Source of the DNA: a virus
Virus record (IMG/VR): IMGVR_UViG_3300046007_003513
Span: 1 to 24,479 of that record
Reading direction: 5' to 3' (one strand)
Length of the DNA stretch: 24,479 nucleotides
Position 1 is the stretch's first letter. Each line of letters begins with the position of its first letter. Under the pieces are notes generated by a model. It was not told the DNA's origin, did no database searches, and saw nothing but the letters and a program-made list of their open reading frames with translations. Of the stretch, positions 3,027 through 10,851 are shown piece after piece. Made by a program: the position numbers and the translations under genes.

Positions 3027-5600
3027 ATGGCACTACCATTTGATCAGCAAAAAACACAATCTGGTAATTCTATTTTTGAAAACATATATGCCTATGGAAG
3101 TATCGAAACTCCTAAAATTAAAACAACATCAATTCCTGGAATTGAGGGAATATCAGAAGGTATTTTAGCTGCAAGTAAAAATAGAATTTTTGTATCAACA
3201 GCTGGTGATGATAATAATAGTGGTCTGAGTGCCGATGATCCAGTTCTTACAATTAAAAGAGCAGCAGAAATAGCAACAACTAATTTTGAAGATACTGATA
3301 AAAAATCAATTTATGTTTCTTCTGGAGAATATGTGGAACAAAATCCTATTGTTCTTCCAAGATTTTGTGCCATTATTGGAGATAGTTTAAGAACAGTTGT
3401 ATTAAGACCTGGAATTCCTGATATTGACTACTTCAAAGTCAAAGAAGGTGATATGTTAATGAATCTTGTTTTTAGAGACAATGATGGTGGAGATTTTACA
3501 TTTAGATATGCGATGTCATATGATAATAGTGGTCCAAAACTAATCATCAACCAATCTCCATATGCTTTAAATTGCTCATTAATTTCAACTAGAGGTAGAG
3601 GTAAAAACTCATATTCAATAGTTGCTAATCAATGGACAAAGGGATTTTCACAAGAACCAAGAGGATCTTTTGCTTATGTTGATGGAAACGCCGTAGATTC
3701 AATATCCAGTGGAGATTCTAGTGGTGGAAATCTTGAGTCTATGGTTTTTGCTCTATTATCAATAATTACACCTGGTATTGGCATCCATATTGATAATTGT
3801 GCGTATGCTCAGATTGTTAATGTCTTTGGAATTTTTAATACTGATAATATTTTGTGTGAAAACGGTGGTTATGCCTCTGTCACAAACTCAGCAACAAACT
3901 TTGGGATTAACGCTCTTCGTGCTGTAGGATTTTCGACAGTTACTAACTCATATTCTCAAGATGTTGGTATAGTAACTTTTGCCTGTGCTAGTTCTACTGG
4001 TGTTGGAAGCACTGATAGGATTACGATTGCTGGAGCGGCAACCACAATTGCAAGTTCACAATCCATCGTTAGTATTGTTGATAATGGGAATGGGGATGAA
4101 CTACAAAAACCAAATATTAATAATTTGTTGAGATTTGGATATACTGATGGAGAAACTAATTTTACACACTCTGGCATAGAGTTTCAGATTAGAAAGGTTT
4201 CCGATTCAAGAACTATCACTTATAGTGGAGAAACTAGAACTGTATATGATGTTTCAATTTCTCCTCGTTTAGATGAATACTTCTCTGGATCATATATTCA
4301 ATATTCAAATTTTAATAACATAAGCGTCAAACAGTTAAGACCATCAGTTGTTAACTCATCATCTCATACTTGGGAATATGCTGGATCTGGAACCAATTAT
4401 GATGCACTTCCAAAAAATGGAGGATTCACAAGGGTAGAAAATGAACAAGTGGAGGAAGATTATGGACAGGTCTACACTTCAGGAACAAACGAACTTGGTG
4501 ATTTCAAAGTAGGAAACTTTGTTGTTCTTAAAAATAATACAGGTGAAGTTCAGTTTACGACTCCAATTCCGATTGCCCAGATTGATAGAATTAATTTCAC
4601 TTCTGGAAATACAAATCTGATTATTACTGGTGCTGTCGATGATACTCAAATGGGTGGGTCCGCACCATCAGATAATTTTATACCAACTCAAAGAGCGGTA
4701 AATGTTTTTGTAAGTTCTGGTTCAACAACACTTACCAATAAAATAATTGCTGCTGGTTCAAATACAATTACTGGATTAACTAACTCAAATTTATCTGGTA
4801 GTGCTGGTATTACAAATGCAAATCTTGCAACACCAACTATTTCAGGAATATCTCTTGGAAGTAATCTTACAGATTTAACACTTGGAACACACTTAAGTTT
4901 TGCAAGTGGTTCTACTTATAACGGAGGAACTGCAAGACAAATTGTAACTAATGCCACAAGTTCTAATACAGCATCAGCAATAGTTGCTCGTGATGGTTCT
5001 GGTAACTTTAGTGCAGGTCAGATTACGGCAACTTCATTTGTAAAATCTGGCGGAACTTCAAGTCAATTCTTAAAAGCAGATGGTTCTATTGACTCTACAA
5101 CGTATGCTTCCGCAAATACCTTTAATGGAACTCTGAACAACATATTAACACTTAATACTTCTGGGACTGGATTATCTGGTATTGCAACATACAATAATGC
5201 TTCCGCAGTTACGTTCACTGTTACAAGCAATGCAACAAGTTCTAACACTGGCGGCACAATAGTTGCTCGTGATGGATCTGGTAATTTTAGTGCTGGAACT
5301 ATTACCGCAACAGACTTTAACTCAACATCAGATATCAATCTGAAAACCAATATCAAACCAATTCTTTCACCATTATCCAAGTTACTTCAACTTAATGGTA
5401 TAACTTTCAACTGGAAAAAAGATAATAGACCTTCTGTTGGTGTAATAGCACAAGAAGTTGAAAAAGTATTTCCAGAACTTGTAAATGAAACTGAAAACTT
5501 TAAGACAGTTAATTATGATGGTTTGATTGGATTACTGATAGAAGCAATTAAAGAGCAACAACAGCAAATAGACGAGCTCAAAAAACAGGTCAATAAATAA
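3027..5600 (+). CDS. 857-aa tail fibre/baseplate protein with C-terminal Peptidase_S74 chaperone
   Basis: Near the N-terminus, RIFVSTAGDDNNSGLSADDP and TIKRAAEIA are the entry strand of a pectin-lyase-like right-handed beta-helix, the fold used by fibres and tailspikes. The middle contains an HTWEYAGSGTNYDALP stretch and YTSGTNELGDFKVGNF, both with counterparts in the 1784-aa protein. Two 27-residue repeats around ARDGSGNFSAG follow. The C-terminus has SDINLKTNI (from S768) and GVIAQEVEKVFPEL, then a Gln/Lys coiled tail: the S74 intramolecular chaperone. In that family the domain drives trimerisation and cuts itself off at the conserved Ser, here S768. The gene starts 4 nt after the previous stop. 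An adhesin or fibre role is likely; no enzymatic site was seen in the helix. Confidence 0.88.
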   Translation: MALPFDQQKTQSGNSIFENIYAYGSIETPKIKTTSIPGIEGISEGILAASKNRIFVSTAGDDNNSGLSADDPVLTIKRAAEIATTNFEDTDKKSIYVSSGEYVEQNPIVLPRFCAIIGDSLRTVVLRPGIPDIDYFKVKEGDMLMNLVFRDNDGGDFTFRYAMSYDNSGPKLIINQSPYALNCSLISTRGRGKNSYSIVANQWTKGFSQEPRGSFAYVDGNAVDSISSGDSSGGNLESMVFALLSIITPGIGIHIDNCAYAQIVNVFGIFNTDNILCENGGYASVTNSATNFGINALRAVGFSTVTNSYSQDVGIVTFACASSTGVGSTDRITIAGAATTIASSQSIVSIVDNGNGDELQKPNINNLLRFGYTDGETNFTHSGIEFQIRKVSDSRTITYSGETRTVYDVSISPRLDEYFSGSYIQYSNFNNISVKQLRPSVVNSSSHTWEYAGSGTNYDALPKNGGFTRVENEQVEEDYGQVYTSGTNELGDFKVGNFVVLKNNTGEVQFTTPIPIAQIDRINFTSGNTNLIITGAVDDTQMGGSAPSDNFIPTQRAVNVFVSSGSTTLTNKIIAAGSNTITGLTNSNLSGSAGITNANLATPTISGISLGSNLTDLTLGTHLSFASGSTYNGGTARQIVTNATSSNTASAIVARDGSGNFSAGQITATSFVKSGGTSSQFLKADGSIDSTTYASANTFNGTLNNILTLNTSGTGLSGIATYNNASAVTFTVTSNATSSNTGGTIVARDGSGNFSAGTITATDFNSTSDINLKTNIKPILSPLSKLLQLNGITFNWKKDNRPSVGVIAQEVEKVFPELVNETENFKTVNYDGLIGLLIEAIKEQQQQIDELKKQVNK
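4953..5033 (+). repeat. diverged direct repeat, copy 1 (ARDGSGNFSAG unit)
   Basis: A 27-codon unit ending just before 5034 is repeated in frame at 5232-5312, 279 bp downstream. Both encode ATSSNT, then ARDGSGNFSAG, then an ITAT stretch. Most differences are at third positions or in the variable centre. It is a fibre shaft-type repeat inside the 857-aa gene. Confidence 0.8.
5232..5312 (+). repeat. diverged direct repeat, copy 2 (ARDGSGNFSAG unit)
   Basis: Second copy of the unit at 4953-5033. It lies immediately before the S74 chaperone domain, so the repeats form the last fibre segment ahead of the expected self-cleavage site. Confidence 0.8.
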
Positions 5601-5992: not shown

Positions 5993-6583
5993 ATGGATTC
6001 AAAATATAACAATTTTATTGGAATGTATCATGATGTATTTCCTGATGGATTTTGTAGTCATTTAATTGATGAATTTGAAAGATTACTAGTTTCTGGTGCT
6101 TGTGGCAATAGACAAACATATGAAAATGCACTAAAAACTGCGAAAGACGATTATCACTACTTTATGAATATTAAAACTAATCCTATGGATTTTTTTAATA
6201 ATGAATCTGTAGTAGATGTATTTGTAAATGGACTACAAAAATGTTTTAATGATTATGTAAATGAATATGATATTCTAAGAGATTATGATTTGAGATGTAC
6301 CCATCTTAAAATGCAAAAAACTGTTCCTGGTGGTGGGTATCATAGATGGCACGCAGAACAAAGTCCAGATGCTGATGCAGCAAGATGTTTAGTATATATC
6401 GCTTATTTGAATGATATAGAAGAAGCAGGAGAAACAGAGTTTTTATATCAAAGAATTAGAATACCCCCAAAAGAAAACACAATGGTAATTTGGCCAGCAT
6501 CATTTACACATACTCATAGAGGTAACGTAGTTCATGGTGACAAATCTAAATACATAGTGACTGGATGGTTTTACATAGAATGA
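5993..6583 (+). CDS. 2OG-Fe(II) dioxygenase (prolyl-4-hydroxylase-like)
   Basis: The 196-aa protein has the C-terminal layout of 2-oxoglutarate/Fe(II) oxygenases of the prolyl-4-hydroxylase type. GGGYHRWHAE contains H120 and E122 as an HxE variant of the usual HxD iron pair. AYLND and GETEF form the core strands. THTHRG supplies the distal His (H175). A Lys in KYIVTGW (about K186) is positioned to hold 2-oxoglutarate. The family hydroxylates amino-acid side chains, often Pro, using O2 and releasing succinate and CO2. The next gene, 3 nt downstream, encodes a Gly/Pro-rich protein with about 16 Pro-Gly pairs, which are plausible substrates (inference). Glu for Asp occurs in some family members as I recall, but activity is not proven. 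Confidence 0.85.
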   Translation: MDSKYNNFIGMYHDVFPDGFCSHLIDEFERLLVSGACGNRQTYENALKTAKDDYHYFMNIKTNPMDFFNNESVVDVFVNGLQKCFNDYVNEYDILRDYDLRCTHLKMQKTVPGGGYHRWHAEQSPDADAARCLVYIAYLNDIEEAGETEFLYQRIRIPPKENTMVIWPASFTHTHRGNVVHGDKSKYIVTGWFYIE

Positions 6584-8270: not shown

Positions 8271-8799
8271 TGAACTTTATGTTTTAGTTGATACTCGTCA
8301 AAAAATAATCATTGATAAGATACAAAAACTTCCAGAAAACTGGAAAAATATTGCTGGTCTTTCTGGTTTAACTGACGAACAACTTAGTGACTTCAAGTGG
8401 GCAGGGTATGAACATTACGGATGGATAAAACTGAATTCACCTTCTTTGAATGACTATCATTCTAGTTCGGAAAATTTGGAGTTGAATAAAAATACTTTTA
8501 AGAAGTTAGTTTCTAATTTCAAAAAAGAAAAAATACTAGATGGAATTGAATATCAAGGAATAAAATTTACTGCTGATGAAAAAACTAGATATTCACTTTT
8601 TATTAAAAAATTGAGTAATCTAGATACAGTCAACTATAAATCTTTTAACAAGTACTATACTCTCACTAAAGAACAAATTATTGAAATCTGTGATATGATA
8701 GAAGAACGTATTCAAGATTGCTTTGACTGGGAAATGAAAATATATCAACAAATAGAATCCTGTAAGAAAATAACTGATTTTTTAAACATTAAATTATGA
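8260..8799 (+). CDS. 179-aa protein with DUF4376-like C-terminal half
   Basis: The ATG at 8260 lies inside the previous gene (11-nt overlap), and the stop overlaps the sulfotransferase start (ATGA). The N-terminal half has GLTDEQLSDFKWAGYEHYGW. The C-terminal half (EYQGIKFTADEKTRYSLFIK, then YYTLTKEQIIEICDMIEERI, then CFDWEMKI) has the spacing of DUF4376-type phage tail-region proteins: a short Y-x-G-x-x-F strand, a helical segment, a LT turn and a final long helix. That assignment is weak and from memory. If right, the protein is a tail accessory or assembly factor. Codons are strongly AT-biased, as in the next two genes. Confidence 0.7.
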   Translation: MNLDELYVLVDTRQKIIIDKIQKLPENWKNIAGLSGLTDEQLSDFKWAGYEHYGWIKLNSPSLNDYHSSSENLELNKNTFKKLVSNFKKEKILDGIEYQGIKFTADEKTRYSLFIKKLSNLDTVNYKSFNKYYTLTKEQIIEICDMIEERIQDCFDWEMKIYQQIESCKKITDFLNIKL

Positions 8800-9641
8800 A
8801 AACTATTGTCCCACTGACAGGAACTCCAAGATCTGGTTCTACATTATTGATGCACATTTTGAATCAAAATCCAGATTTTACAGTTGGTGCTGATTCTTCT
8901 TTACCTGTAGTTTTAAACAATATTAGATCCTTTGTTCAAGATAACACAACAACCGAACAATTGCCTAATAAAACTTTTAATGATTGTGTTTTGAAGTTTT
9001 GTAGATCAGGTTCAGAATCTTGGGTAAATGAAATTTGCCCAACAAATATTTTTTTAGATAAGTCTAGATATTGGTTATATCAATATCAGTTTATGTTTAA
9101 AGTATTTCCAAACATAAAAATGATATTGAACATTCGTGACCTTAGAGAAATTGTAAATTCAGTGGAAAAAATTCATCACAATTCTTTGTGCATGAACTTT
9201 CAAAATTATTATAATGGATTTGAAAAAGATTTTCTTCATCAAAGAGTTGATAATATATTAGATTTGTGGTTTATAAAGGAATCTCTTGTAAGTCTTAAAG
9301 AGTTAATTGAAGTTGCTCCAAAATGTAGAGATAACATTCTTATTTTTAGATATGAAAATCTTCTACAAGAACCTCAAGAATCTATGAATAGAATTTATGA
9401 TTTTTTAAAACTTCCTAAATTTAATCATGATTTTGAAAATATTCAAGATATGACTAATCATTTTGATAACATATACTTACCATACGGAAATCATAAAATT
9501 AGAAATAAATTAGAGAGATGTGATGAAGATCTTCCTTATCTTCCACAAAATTTTTGTGATTATATTATAGAAACTCATAAGTGGTATTATGAGCATTTTT
9601 ATCCTGAAATTTTAGAAGGGATGGTAGAGAATGATATTTAA
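8796..9641 (+). CDS. PAPS-dependent sulfotransferase
   Basis: The 281-aa protein has both PAPS-binding elements of sulfotransferases. The 5'-phosphosulfate loop is GTPRSGSTLLMHIL (from residue 9), matching the PxSGTT-type loop. The 3'-phosphate element is NIRDLREIVNS, with R114 and S122 eight residues apart, as in known family members. FRYENLLQEPQESMNRIYDF (from 184) is the typical later helix. The enzyme would move sulfate from PAPS to a hydroxyl or amine; the acceptor cannot be read. Its start overlaps the upstream stop (ATGA) and it overlaps the next gene by 11 nt, so it is co-transcribed with the second dioxygenase. A sulfotransferase in a phage tail region suggests decoration of a virion protein or host glycan (inference). 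Composition is very AT-rich. Confidence 0.88.
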   Translation: MKTIVPLTGTPRSGSTLLMHILNQNPDFTVGADSSLPVVLNNIRSFVQDNTTTEQLPNKTFNDCVLKFCRSGSESWVNEICPTNIFLDKSRYWLYQYQFMFKVFPNIKMILNIRDLREIVNSVEKIHHNSLCMNFQNYYNGFEKDFLHQRVDNILDLWFIKESLVSLKELIEVAPKCRDNILIFRYENLLQEPQESMNRIYDFLKLPKFNHDFENIQDMTNHFDNIYLPYGNHKIRNKLERCDEDLPYLPQNFCDYIIETHKWYYEHFYPEILEGMVENDI

Positions 9642-10389: not shown

Positions 10390-10563
10390 ATGGAAGTTTT
10401 CACTGTGGAAGAGTTTCAAGAAAGATTTGATGAACTTATGAGTCGTGTAGAGAACGGCGAGCACATAGGAATCGTTAATGAGGACGGGCAGGCAGCAGTG
10501 ATGATGCCCGTTGATGACGAACTCATACGAATACATACTGAGTTAAACAACGAAGCACAGTAG
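10390..10563 (+). CDS. Phd/YefM-like antitoxin-fold protein (57 aa), orphan
   Basis: The reading frame 10390-10563 encodes FTVEEFQERFDELMSRVENG, then EHIGIVNEDGQAAVMMPVDD. This is the N-terminal DNA-binding pattern of the Phd/YefM antitoxin family: helix-rich FQERFDELMSRVENGE, then strand-turn-strand IVNEDGQAAVMMP. In toxin-antitoxin modules it represses its operon and its C-terminal tail blocks the toxin. Here the C-terminal tail is only about ten residues (IRIHTELNNEAQ) and no toxin gene is adjacent; upstream is the 63-aa protein, downstream are tRNAs. It may therefore act as a small repressor or as an anti-toxin factor against a host system (inference). Confidence 0.75.
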   Translation: MEVFTVEEFQERFDELMSRVENGEHIGIVNEDGQAAVMMPVDDELIRIHTELNNEAQ

Positions 10564-10573
10564 TATTTGTATT

Positions 10574-10661
10574 GCGAGTGAGACTTGGTAGTCAGAGGAG
10601 TCTTATAAACTCTTTCCGCCAGATTAGCGGCTTTGACCTGGTTCAAATCCAGGCACTCGTA
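10574..10661 (+). tRNA. atypical class II tRNA-like gene, apparent anticodon UAU
   Basis: The acceptor stem GCGAGTG (10574-10580) pairs with CACTCGT (10654-10660; the outer pair is G:U) and the discriminator is A. The T arm is CCTGG-TTCAAAT-CCAGG. The anticodon stem GGAGT/ACTCT closes the loop CTTATAA, giving anticodon UAU. Between the anticodon stem and the T arm lie 23 nt with a CCGC/GCGG hairpin, so this is a long-variable-arm (Leu/Ser/Tyr class) shape. The D arm (GAC-TTGGTA-GTC) is short and the base after the acceptor is A, not U. The amino-acid identity cannot be stated; it may be a degenerate or non-canonical tRNA. Confidence 0.6.
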
Positions 10662-10663
10662 TT

Positions 10664-10690: not shown

Positions 10691-10763
10691 GCTCCTTTAG
10701 CAATCTGGCGAATGCAGCGAACTCATAATTCGCGTGAGGTCAGTTCGATCCTGACAAGGAGCA
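10691..10763 (+). tRNA. tRNA with CAU anticodon (Met or Ile2)
   Basis: A 73-nt cloverleaf. The acceptor GCTCCTT pairs perfectly with AAGGAGC and A is the discriminator. The D arm is GCA..TGC with CTGGCG in the loop. The anticodon arm is GCGAA-CTCATAA-TTCGC (anticodon CAU), the variable loop GTGAG, and the T arm GTCAG-TTCGATC-CTGAC. No CCA is encoded. A CAU anticodon means Met, or Ile2 if C34 is converted to lysidine. Consecutive C4-G69 and C5-G68 pairs are present, which I recall as TilS recognition elements, so Ile2 (reading AUA) is a real possibility. Confidence 0.92.
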
Positions 10764-10768
10764 CCTAC

Positions 10769-10851
10769 GGGGAGGTGGTGGAATCGGTAGACACACCAGA
10801 CTTAAAATCTGTTGGGCATTGCCCGTGGGGGTTCAAGTCCCCCTCTCCCTA
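10769..10851 (+). tRNA. tRNA-Leu (UAA)
   Basis: An 83-nt class II tRNA. The acceptor GGGGAGG pairs with TCTCCCT and A is the discriminator. T8-G9 is followed by the D arm GTG-GAATCGGTAGA-CAC. The anticodon loop CTTAAAA gives UAA, the variable arm is GGGC-ATT-GCCC, and the T arm is GGGGG-TTCAAGT-CCCCC. It reads UUA/UUG codons, which suits an AT-rich phage. It lies 5 nt after the CAU tRNA, so the tRNAs are probably processed from one transcript. Confidence 0.93.

Follow-up and report, generated by a model that had tools for sequence, protein, structure and literature searches.

A viral tRNA gene that joins the isoleucine anticodon UAU to a class II body raises the question of whether it encodes a working tRNA, which amino acid it would deliver to AUA codons, and what its long variable arm is. 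The window, that is the whole stretch of DNA analysed, covers 24,479 bases of a virus record. It encodes tail proteins of the T4-like cyanophage kind (a baseplate hub with tail lysozyme, and a tail fibre with an S74 chaperone domain), and its best matches are Synechococcus and Prochlorococcus phages. Three tRNA genes sit between a gene for a Phd-like antitoxin (10390-10563) and the tail fibre. The antitoxin gene lies directly upstream of the UAU tRNA without an obvious toxin, and phage S-SKS1 has a Phd-like antitoxin gene at the equivalent site. The tail-fibre region also carries a sulfotransferase-family gene (8796-9641) and a 2OG-Fe(II) oxygenase gene (5993-6583).

A class II tRNA with a UAU anticodon

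ARAGORN called a tRNA-Ile(tat) at 10573-10662 of the window. At minimum energy this segment folds into a full cloverleaf in which the variable arm forms a hairpin of its own (-32 kcal/mol; z = -3.49, with 1 of 200 shuffles equally good). The tRNA and its two neighbours are composed as follows:

10574-10661, + strand: two-arm tRNA-Ile(UAU), mature body without CCA (ARAGORN, fold, family covariance model)
10574-10580, + strand: 5' strand of the acceptor stem, GCGAGUG, with a G1-U72 wobble; pairs with 10654-10660
10582-10593, + strand: reduced D arm, GACU-UGGU-AGUC (sequence and fold; D arm type as in the cyanophage group)
10597-10613, + strand: arm 1, the anticodon arm, loop CUUAUAA with U33 and A37 (sequence, fold, family comparison)
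10616-10630, + strand: arm 2, the variable-arm hairpin, CCGC-CAGAUUA-GCGG (fold, family conservation, covariation)
10631-10636, + strand: 6-nt linker CUUUGA from arm 2 to the T stem, similar in length to a class I variable loop
10637-10653, + strand: T arm, CCUGG-UUCAAAU-CCAGG (sequence and fold)
10654-10661, + strand: 3' strand of the acceptor stem and discriminator A73; CCA is not encoded (UUG comes next)
10691-10765, + strand: neighbouring ordinary tRNA(CAU) (ARAGORN and general Rfam tRNA model)
10769-10851, + strand: neighbouring ordinary class II tRNA-Leu(UAA) (ARAGORN and general Rfam tRNA model)

A preliminary description of the locus had reported a class II shape with a 23-nt variable region, a UAU anticodon, a short D arm and no U8, and had called UAU on a class II frame a non-standard combination. 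Our reading of the sequence and the fold bears out all of these points: the variable region spans 10614-10636, the anticodon lies at 10604-10606 in agreement with the ARAGORN call, the D stem has 4 bp and closes a 4-nt loop (UGGU), and position 8 is an A (10581) in place of U. A14 is missing from this copy as well. Pair 29-41 of arm 1 is A-U. Arm 2 holds GAU at 10622-10624, an A at the equivalent of position 38 (10626) and a C-G pair at the equivalent of 29-41 (10617/10629). The acceptor and T stems have the 7/5 architecture, with a 7-bp acceptor, in the window and in the family described below.

The general Rfam tRNA model does find the two neighbouring tRNAs of the window, but it misses the UAU tRNA at its gathering score and at E values up to 10. 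With a family covariance model built from 50 diverse rows, the window tRNA scored 67.6 bits, a value that is not independent by construction since the window is among the rows. The neighbouring tRNA(CAU) was weighed as a lysidine-type tRNA-Ile2; its pair 29-41 is G29-C41.

The tRNA belongs to a widespread phage family

BLAST matches to the window tRNA were obtained in phages S-SRM01 (98.9%) and S-SKS1 (83.5%), with a more distant copy in S-CRM01, and all three copies are without annotation. Between the window and S-SKS1, paired changes fall on both sides of stems. In S-CRM01 a 3'-half fragment of a second two-arm tRNA (L003:3005-3060), comprising arm 2, the T arm and part of the acceptor strand, lies directly behind the intact copy.

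Pattern scans of IMG/VR returned at least 120 matches each. Among the matches listed, the first two patterns together with the named phages gave 227 hits, of which 218 were parsed as tRNAs (95 distinct); the nine unparsed hits, partly contig ends and chance hits, were left out of the counts. ARAGORN run on all loci collected yielded at least 223 distinct class II UAU tRNAs, with L251-L253 counted as real members. Five of the 223 had no assignable loop and were left out, which gives n = 218 for the arm-2 loops below. The members were grouped into 51 clusters that are less than 75% alike and are not phylogenetically independent; L346 (misparsed acceptor) and L394 (doubtful loop) are kept in the 51 clusters and excluded from alignment A1.

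Named carriers are Synechococcus phages (Kyanoviridae, Llyrvirus), the Lactobacillus phages LpeD, Lpa804, ENFP1 and 3-521 of the Herelleviridae, and the Vibrio phages Achelous (Demerecviridae), henriette 12B8 and V6Aob; two Aeromonas records and one Sinorhizobium record are also among the matches listed. When the family model was run on ten named phage genomes, the two-arm tRNA was the top match in 10/10. In unrelated phages (L001, L247, L250, L528, L530), genes for HNH endonucleases were seen immediately behind the two-arm tRNA or in its vicinity. A pattern scan of 84,980 bacterial species genomes gave 19 loci, one of which (L228) is a chance match without a tRNA, and the family model was positive in 17 of 119 Pyrinomonadaceae genomes and 2 of 145 genomes of the Nostoc family. 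The Pyrinomonadaceae copies mostly lie within dense tRNA arrays (up to 24 tRNAs in 8 kb), and the two-arm tRNA often has a tRNA-Ile(GAU) as its neighbour there (L229, L233, L241, L246, L535-L546). A scan of plasmids for the two-arm tRNA gave no match.

Across the 50 diverse rows, 94.9% of cells were paired in the three helices tested, the helix covariation score was 0.805 against 0.165 after shuffling, and in both arm 1 and arm 2 no pair was without changes on both sides. A73 is present in 50/51 clusters, and G18G19 and the T-loop motif are conserved. Of the 36 clusters with a canonical D arm, 27 pair 15-48 as A-U and 3 as G-C, and CCA is encoded in 57 of the 95 distinct sequences among the matches listed; in the cyanophage group the D arm is stripped and CCA is not encoded. 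Position 4-69, where C4-G69 is an element of tRNA-Ile alongside U12-A23, is C-G in 24/51 clusters, against 952/2778 other tRNAs, and A4-U69 in the window. A G1-U72 wobble at the acceptor end (10574/10660 in the window) occurs in 25/51 clusters and also in 43/185 Leu tRNAs with a long variable arm. Four members (L145, L187, L204, L220) have the T loop AUCGUAA in place of UUCRANY, with U54-A58 exchanged for A54-U58.

Thus the window tRNA is a member of a widespread phage family and not a wreck. Because its stems covary and its loops are conserved across a large family, the earlier suggestion that it may be degenerate is unsupported, and covariation and family size likewise led us to reject a pseudogene. 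Neither a standard cloverleaf with another anticodon nor close homologues of normal shape, the outcomes that were to overturn the description, were found; the homologues have the same shape. Two known classes were also rejected: the 7/5 acceptor/T architecture and A73 separate the family from the allo-tRNAs, which are 8/4 or 9/3, and A73 in 50/51 clusters does not fit tRNA-Ser, since the Ser tRNAs of the studied loci have G73 in 187/219.

AUA is read as isoleucine in the carrier phages

AUA accounts for 16.4 per 1000 codons in the ORFs of the studied loci and for 84 of 7194 codons in the ORFs of the window. Its meaning was examined by codon alignment, in which homologues with the identical codon were excluded to keep the baseline fair. 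The homologues at 3170 aligned AUA positions had Ile in 0.395, Val in 0.202, Leu in 0.140 and Ser in 0.015, a measure of whole-cell reading that includes host tRNAs and is not the charge of the two-arm tRNA. The corresponding values at AUU positions were 0.364, 0.265, 0.144 and 0.015, and at Leu codons the homologues had Leu in 0.57-0.62. Expressed as Ile/(Ile+Leu), AUA stood at 0.738, AUU at 0.716 and the Leu codons at 0.11-0.17. The 1896 AUA positions from cyanophage-type loci gave Ile 0.403, Leu 0.133 and Ser 0.014.

Because AUA aligns with Ile as AUU does, AUA is not a Leu or Ser codon for these phages. The preliminary description had named recoding as one possibility; a switch to Leu or Ser, an idea prompted by the nematode nev-tRNAs, was rejected by the alignment both in raw form and without identical codons. 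The reading of AUA as Ile in these phages is therefore well supported by sequence comparison, and it is very probable that the two-arm gene encodes a functional phage tRNA that inserts Ile at AUA codons.

Resemblance of the variable arm to an isoleucine anticodon arm

In 218 of the 223 class II UAU tRNAs, the variable arm has a 7-nt NNGAYNN loop on at least three stem pairs. CAGAUUA (127) and CAGAUAA (52) are the common loops, and the rest are 17 rarer forms. When numbered as an anticodon loop, G34 and A35 are present in 218/218, although the parse demanded both; U36 is found in 215, A33 in 203 and A38 in 201, and position 37 is U in 145 and A in 62. The exceptions are three GAC loops, an odd loop in L291 and AAU in L383. 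Six of the 218 have U33 (CUGAUUA, CUGAUAA), and CUGAUAA is identical to the anticodon-loop consensus of the tRNA-Ile(GAU) genes from the studied loci. The stem has only three pairs in 36/218, and 28-42 is G.G in 48/218.

In arm 2, 205/218 members and 46/51 clusters have C-G at 29-41, and this holds while pairs 31-39, 30-40 and 28-42 vary among the clusters. Among 2773 distinct tRNAs from the studied loci, C29-G41 is found in 0.64 of the 87 tRNA-Ile (86 of them GAU) and in at most 0.23 of any of 19 other isotype groups. Arm 1 has C29-G41 in 15/51 clusters and A38 in 24/51; the difference between the arms in C29-G41 is significant (Fisher 3e-10, uncorrected for shared ancestry). In a table of the review PMC9976931, the anticodon-branch determinants of bacterial tRNA-Ile are C29-G41, C/G34, A35, U36, A37 and A38, with t6A37 a strong determinant for bacterial-type IleRS. 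Arm 2 holds this set except for A37, and arm 1 does not hold it. In the window, arm 2 has U37 and A37 sits in arm 1.

Stem pairs alone, with the anticodon and position 33 masked, placed arm 2 nearest to tRNA-Ile among 20 isotypes in 35/51 clusters, and arm 1 in 8/51 by the equal test. Adding positions 32, 37 and 38 gave 28/51 for arm 2, and the four pairs with positions 32 and 38 gave 23/51; Ile had the best summed score in every version. Variable loops of the Leu, Ser and Tyr tRNAs of the studied loci are mostly varied and short, GNRA and UUCG included, and the arm-2 motif was not found in them.

The likeness to GAU was noticed post hoc, and the C29-G41 and stem tests were devised after the idea. 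Since the first search pattern contained MGATTA, circularity was controlled by scans blind to the variable loop, one fixing the length from anticodon to T arm and the other using the D arm and anticodon only. Among the matches listed, loci new in the blind scans held 124 distinct UAU tRNAs, 123 of them class II; the loop was present in 121 of the 123, with GAU in 119, C29-G41 in 109/121 and A38 in 106/121.

The linker between arm 2 and the T stem points the same way. In 206/218 members it measures 5-6 nt, much as class I variable loops do, whereas most Leu and Ser tRNAs of the studied loci have 1-2 nt at this place and most Tyr tRNAs have 3 nt. With this difference from 1-3 nt and a UAU anticodon, the gene does not fit an ordinary class II tRNA-Leu, -Ser or -Tyr. 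Vibrio phage Achelous carries an ordinary tRNA-Ile(GAU) and a two-arm tRNA side by side; both share the D arm UAGCUCAGUUGGUAGAGCA, and the T arm is preceded by AGGUC in one and UGGUC in the other, both like class I variable loops. Given this likeness and the linker length, the two-arm gene can be described as a tRNA-Ile with an extra UAU hairpin placed before the GAU arm. The variable arm thus looks like an isoleucine anticodon arm in disguise, and the earlier guess that the tRNA may be chimeric survives in spirit, as a resemblance to a second, tRNA-Ile(GAU)-like anticodon arm.

A possible division of labour between two anticodon arms

U33 is otherwise near-universal in tRNAs, and U34 tRNAs are poorly charged by E. 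coli IleRS. According to PMC11938285, IleRS needs G34 or a modified C34; the E. coli enzyme does not charge tRNA-Ile2 with unmodified C34, and lysidine or ava2C at this base cures its charging. In the mechanism that we propose, arm 1 (UAU, U33, A37) alone would pair with AUA on the ribosome, and host IleRS would read arm 2 (GAU, A38, C29-G41) when charging. With a UAU arm for decoding and a GAU arm for charging, the reading of AUA would depend neither on lysidine at C34 nor on a U34-tolerant IleRS. As GAU would serve IleRS and UAU the ribosome, no lysidine would be needed. The A33 of arm 2 may keep that arm off the ribosome.

We hold with moderate confidence that the tRNA has two anticodon arms, UAU read by the ribosome at AUA and GAU read by IleRS, and we lean towards the view that the phage family as a whole splits the two jobs in this way, with the GAU arm disabled for the ribosome by A33. 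Several observations count against such a mechanism. Arm 2 has U37 in place of t6A37 in 145/218; A33, which a normal anticodon loop does not have, is present in 203/218, stems are short or mismatched in part of the family, and three loops read GAC. Phages also carry ordinary UAU tRNAs of class I that lack arm 2 (at least 95 distinct ones, from 120 hits among the matches listed), so arm 2 is not always needed. C29-G41 was not significantly rarer in arm 1 than in these class I tRNAs (p = 0.13), and the difference in A38 was weak (p = 0.04). U37, the stems, the GAC loops and the class I UAU tRNAs are the reason why our confidence in the mechanism is only moderate, while that in the plainer claim of a functional tRNA for AUA as Ile is high. 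In the Lactobacillus brevis phages 3-521 and ENFP1 the arm-2 loops are altered (CGGACAG, CAGAUGG), and CAGAUUA is kept in two other Lactobacillus phages; the altered loops would fit hosts with a UAU-accepting IleRS, which is only suggestive.

The same tRNA might instead be a simple tRNA-Ile(UAU) in which IleRS reads the UAU arm and A73, and arm 2 is a structural or stabilising part with no specific binding partner, or serves another host factor such as a modification enzyme or an elongation factor. We regard this as possible though rather unlikely. The class I UAU tRNAs of phages and the A37 kept in arm 1 speak for it, and Uesugi 2022 is said to describe some lactic acid bacteria with an IleRS that accepts UAU. 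It leaves unexplained why conservation in arm 2 falls on just the bases of the Ile identity set while its other stem pairs vary. If the 7-nt GAU loop were used on the ribosome, arm 2 could also read AUU and AUC, and one tRNA would serve all three Ile codons; six of 218 loops do have U33, but A33 in 203/218, against U33 in 78 of 86 tRNA-Ile(GAU), makes this very improbable.

Equally improbable is a missense or recoding tRNA of the nev type, in which the long variable arm and A73 would lead to charging by LeuRS or SerRS and AUA would be read partly as Leu or Ser. Class II shape, A73 and UAU are what such a tRNA would have, and nematode nev-tRNA-Ile(UAU) is reported to take Leu in vitro (PMC4300185, PMC4033280). 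At the 3170 AUA positions, however, the Ile/(Ile+Leu) value of 0.738 and a Ser share of 0.015 argue otherwise, as do the Leu, Ser and Tyr tRNAs of the studied loci, whose variable loops lack the arm-2 motif, and position 8, where U8 is missing in many members (T8 in 40/51 clusters). A degenerate or decoy tRNA with no decoding role, for example a bait for host nucleases, would agree with the failure of the general Rfam model on the window copy and with the stripped D arm and missing CCA of the cyanophage group. We consider it highly unlikely in view of the covarying stems, the conserved G18G19, T loop and A73, the 15-48 pair (A-U or G-C in 27 and 3 of 36 clusters) and the CCA encoded in 57/95.

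Comparison with known systems

IleRS and the ribosome both read the isoleucine anticodon, and AUA is the classic conflict between the two, which cells resolve by modifying C34 chemically. Should the two-arm mechanism hold, a GAU arm kept for the enzyme would solve this conflict in a different and purely genetic way: a natural tRNA with two anticodons would read AUA without modification of the wobble base. One tRNA could then serve the synthetase with one arm and the ribosome with the other, a design in which protein engineers would find the decoding anticodon freed from charging. Behind many phage genes annotated as tRNA-Ile(UAU) there is a distinct architecture, and the copies in S-SRM01, S-SKS1 and S-CRM01 carry no annotation at all. 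Variable regions of at least 11 nt were also seen in phage Cys (L086, L127, L159, L178), Lys (L056, L089, L384) and Asn (L005, L097) tRNAs; 47 rows of supposed class I isotypes have such regions, some of them parse errors and several genuine.

In the open-licence literature we found no tRNA with a second anticodon arm read by a synthetase, and a report behind subscription is possible. The nearest known systems are the nev-tRNAs, the allo-tRNAs, tRNA-Ile3(UAU) and mimics that a synthetase reads, such as the thrS operator. tRNA-Ile3(UAU) is a class I tRNA, unlike the two-arm tRNA, and the IleRS of M. mobile and of lactic acid bacteria is reportedly adapted to U34. According to PMC8450103, tRNA-Ile3 occurs in Bifidobacterium, Mycoplasma, some Lactobacilli and a few archaea, and it shares UAU and the reading of AUA with the phage tRNA. 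Bacterial tRNA-Ile2 (CAU, with lysidine or ava2C at C34) has in common with it A73 and AUA as Ile, but is class I and must be modified at C34 by TilS before IleRS accepts it (PMC11938285); position 34 of the phage tRNA is U, and there is a second arm.

The nematode nev-tRNA-Ile(UAU) combines a class II arm with UAU, as the two-arm tRNA does; it is eukaryotic and reportedly takes Leu in vitro (PMC4300185), whereas the phages read AUA as Ile and the variable loop is Ile-like. The allo-tRNAs are class II too, and those of the 8/4 type often have UAU as their anticodon (PMC7609411), but their 8/4 or 9/3 stems and Ser-type identity set them apart from a 7/5 family with A73. Further systems to compare are the thrS operator, which mimics a second anticodon stem (PMC9976931), and the tRNA-like structures of plant viruses; in these, the synthetase recognises a hairpin that resembles an anticodon arm but does not belong to a normal tRNA. 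These mimics are parts of an mRNA or a genomic RNA, whereas the phage family would unite an arm for the ribosome with another for the enzyme in a single tRNA.
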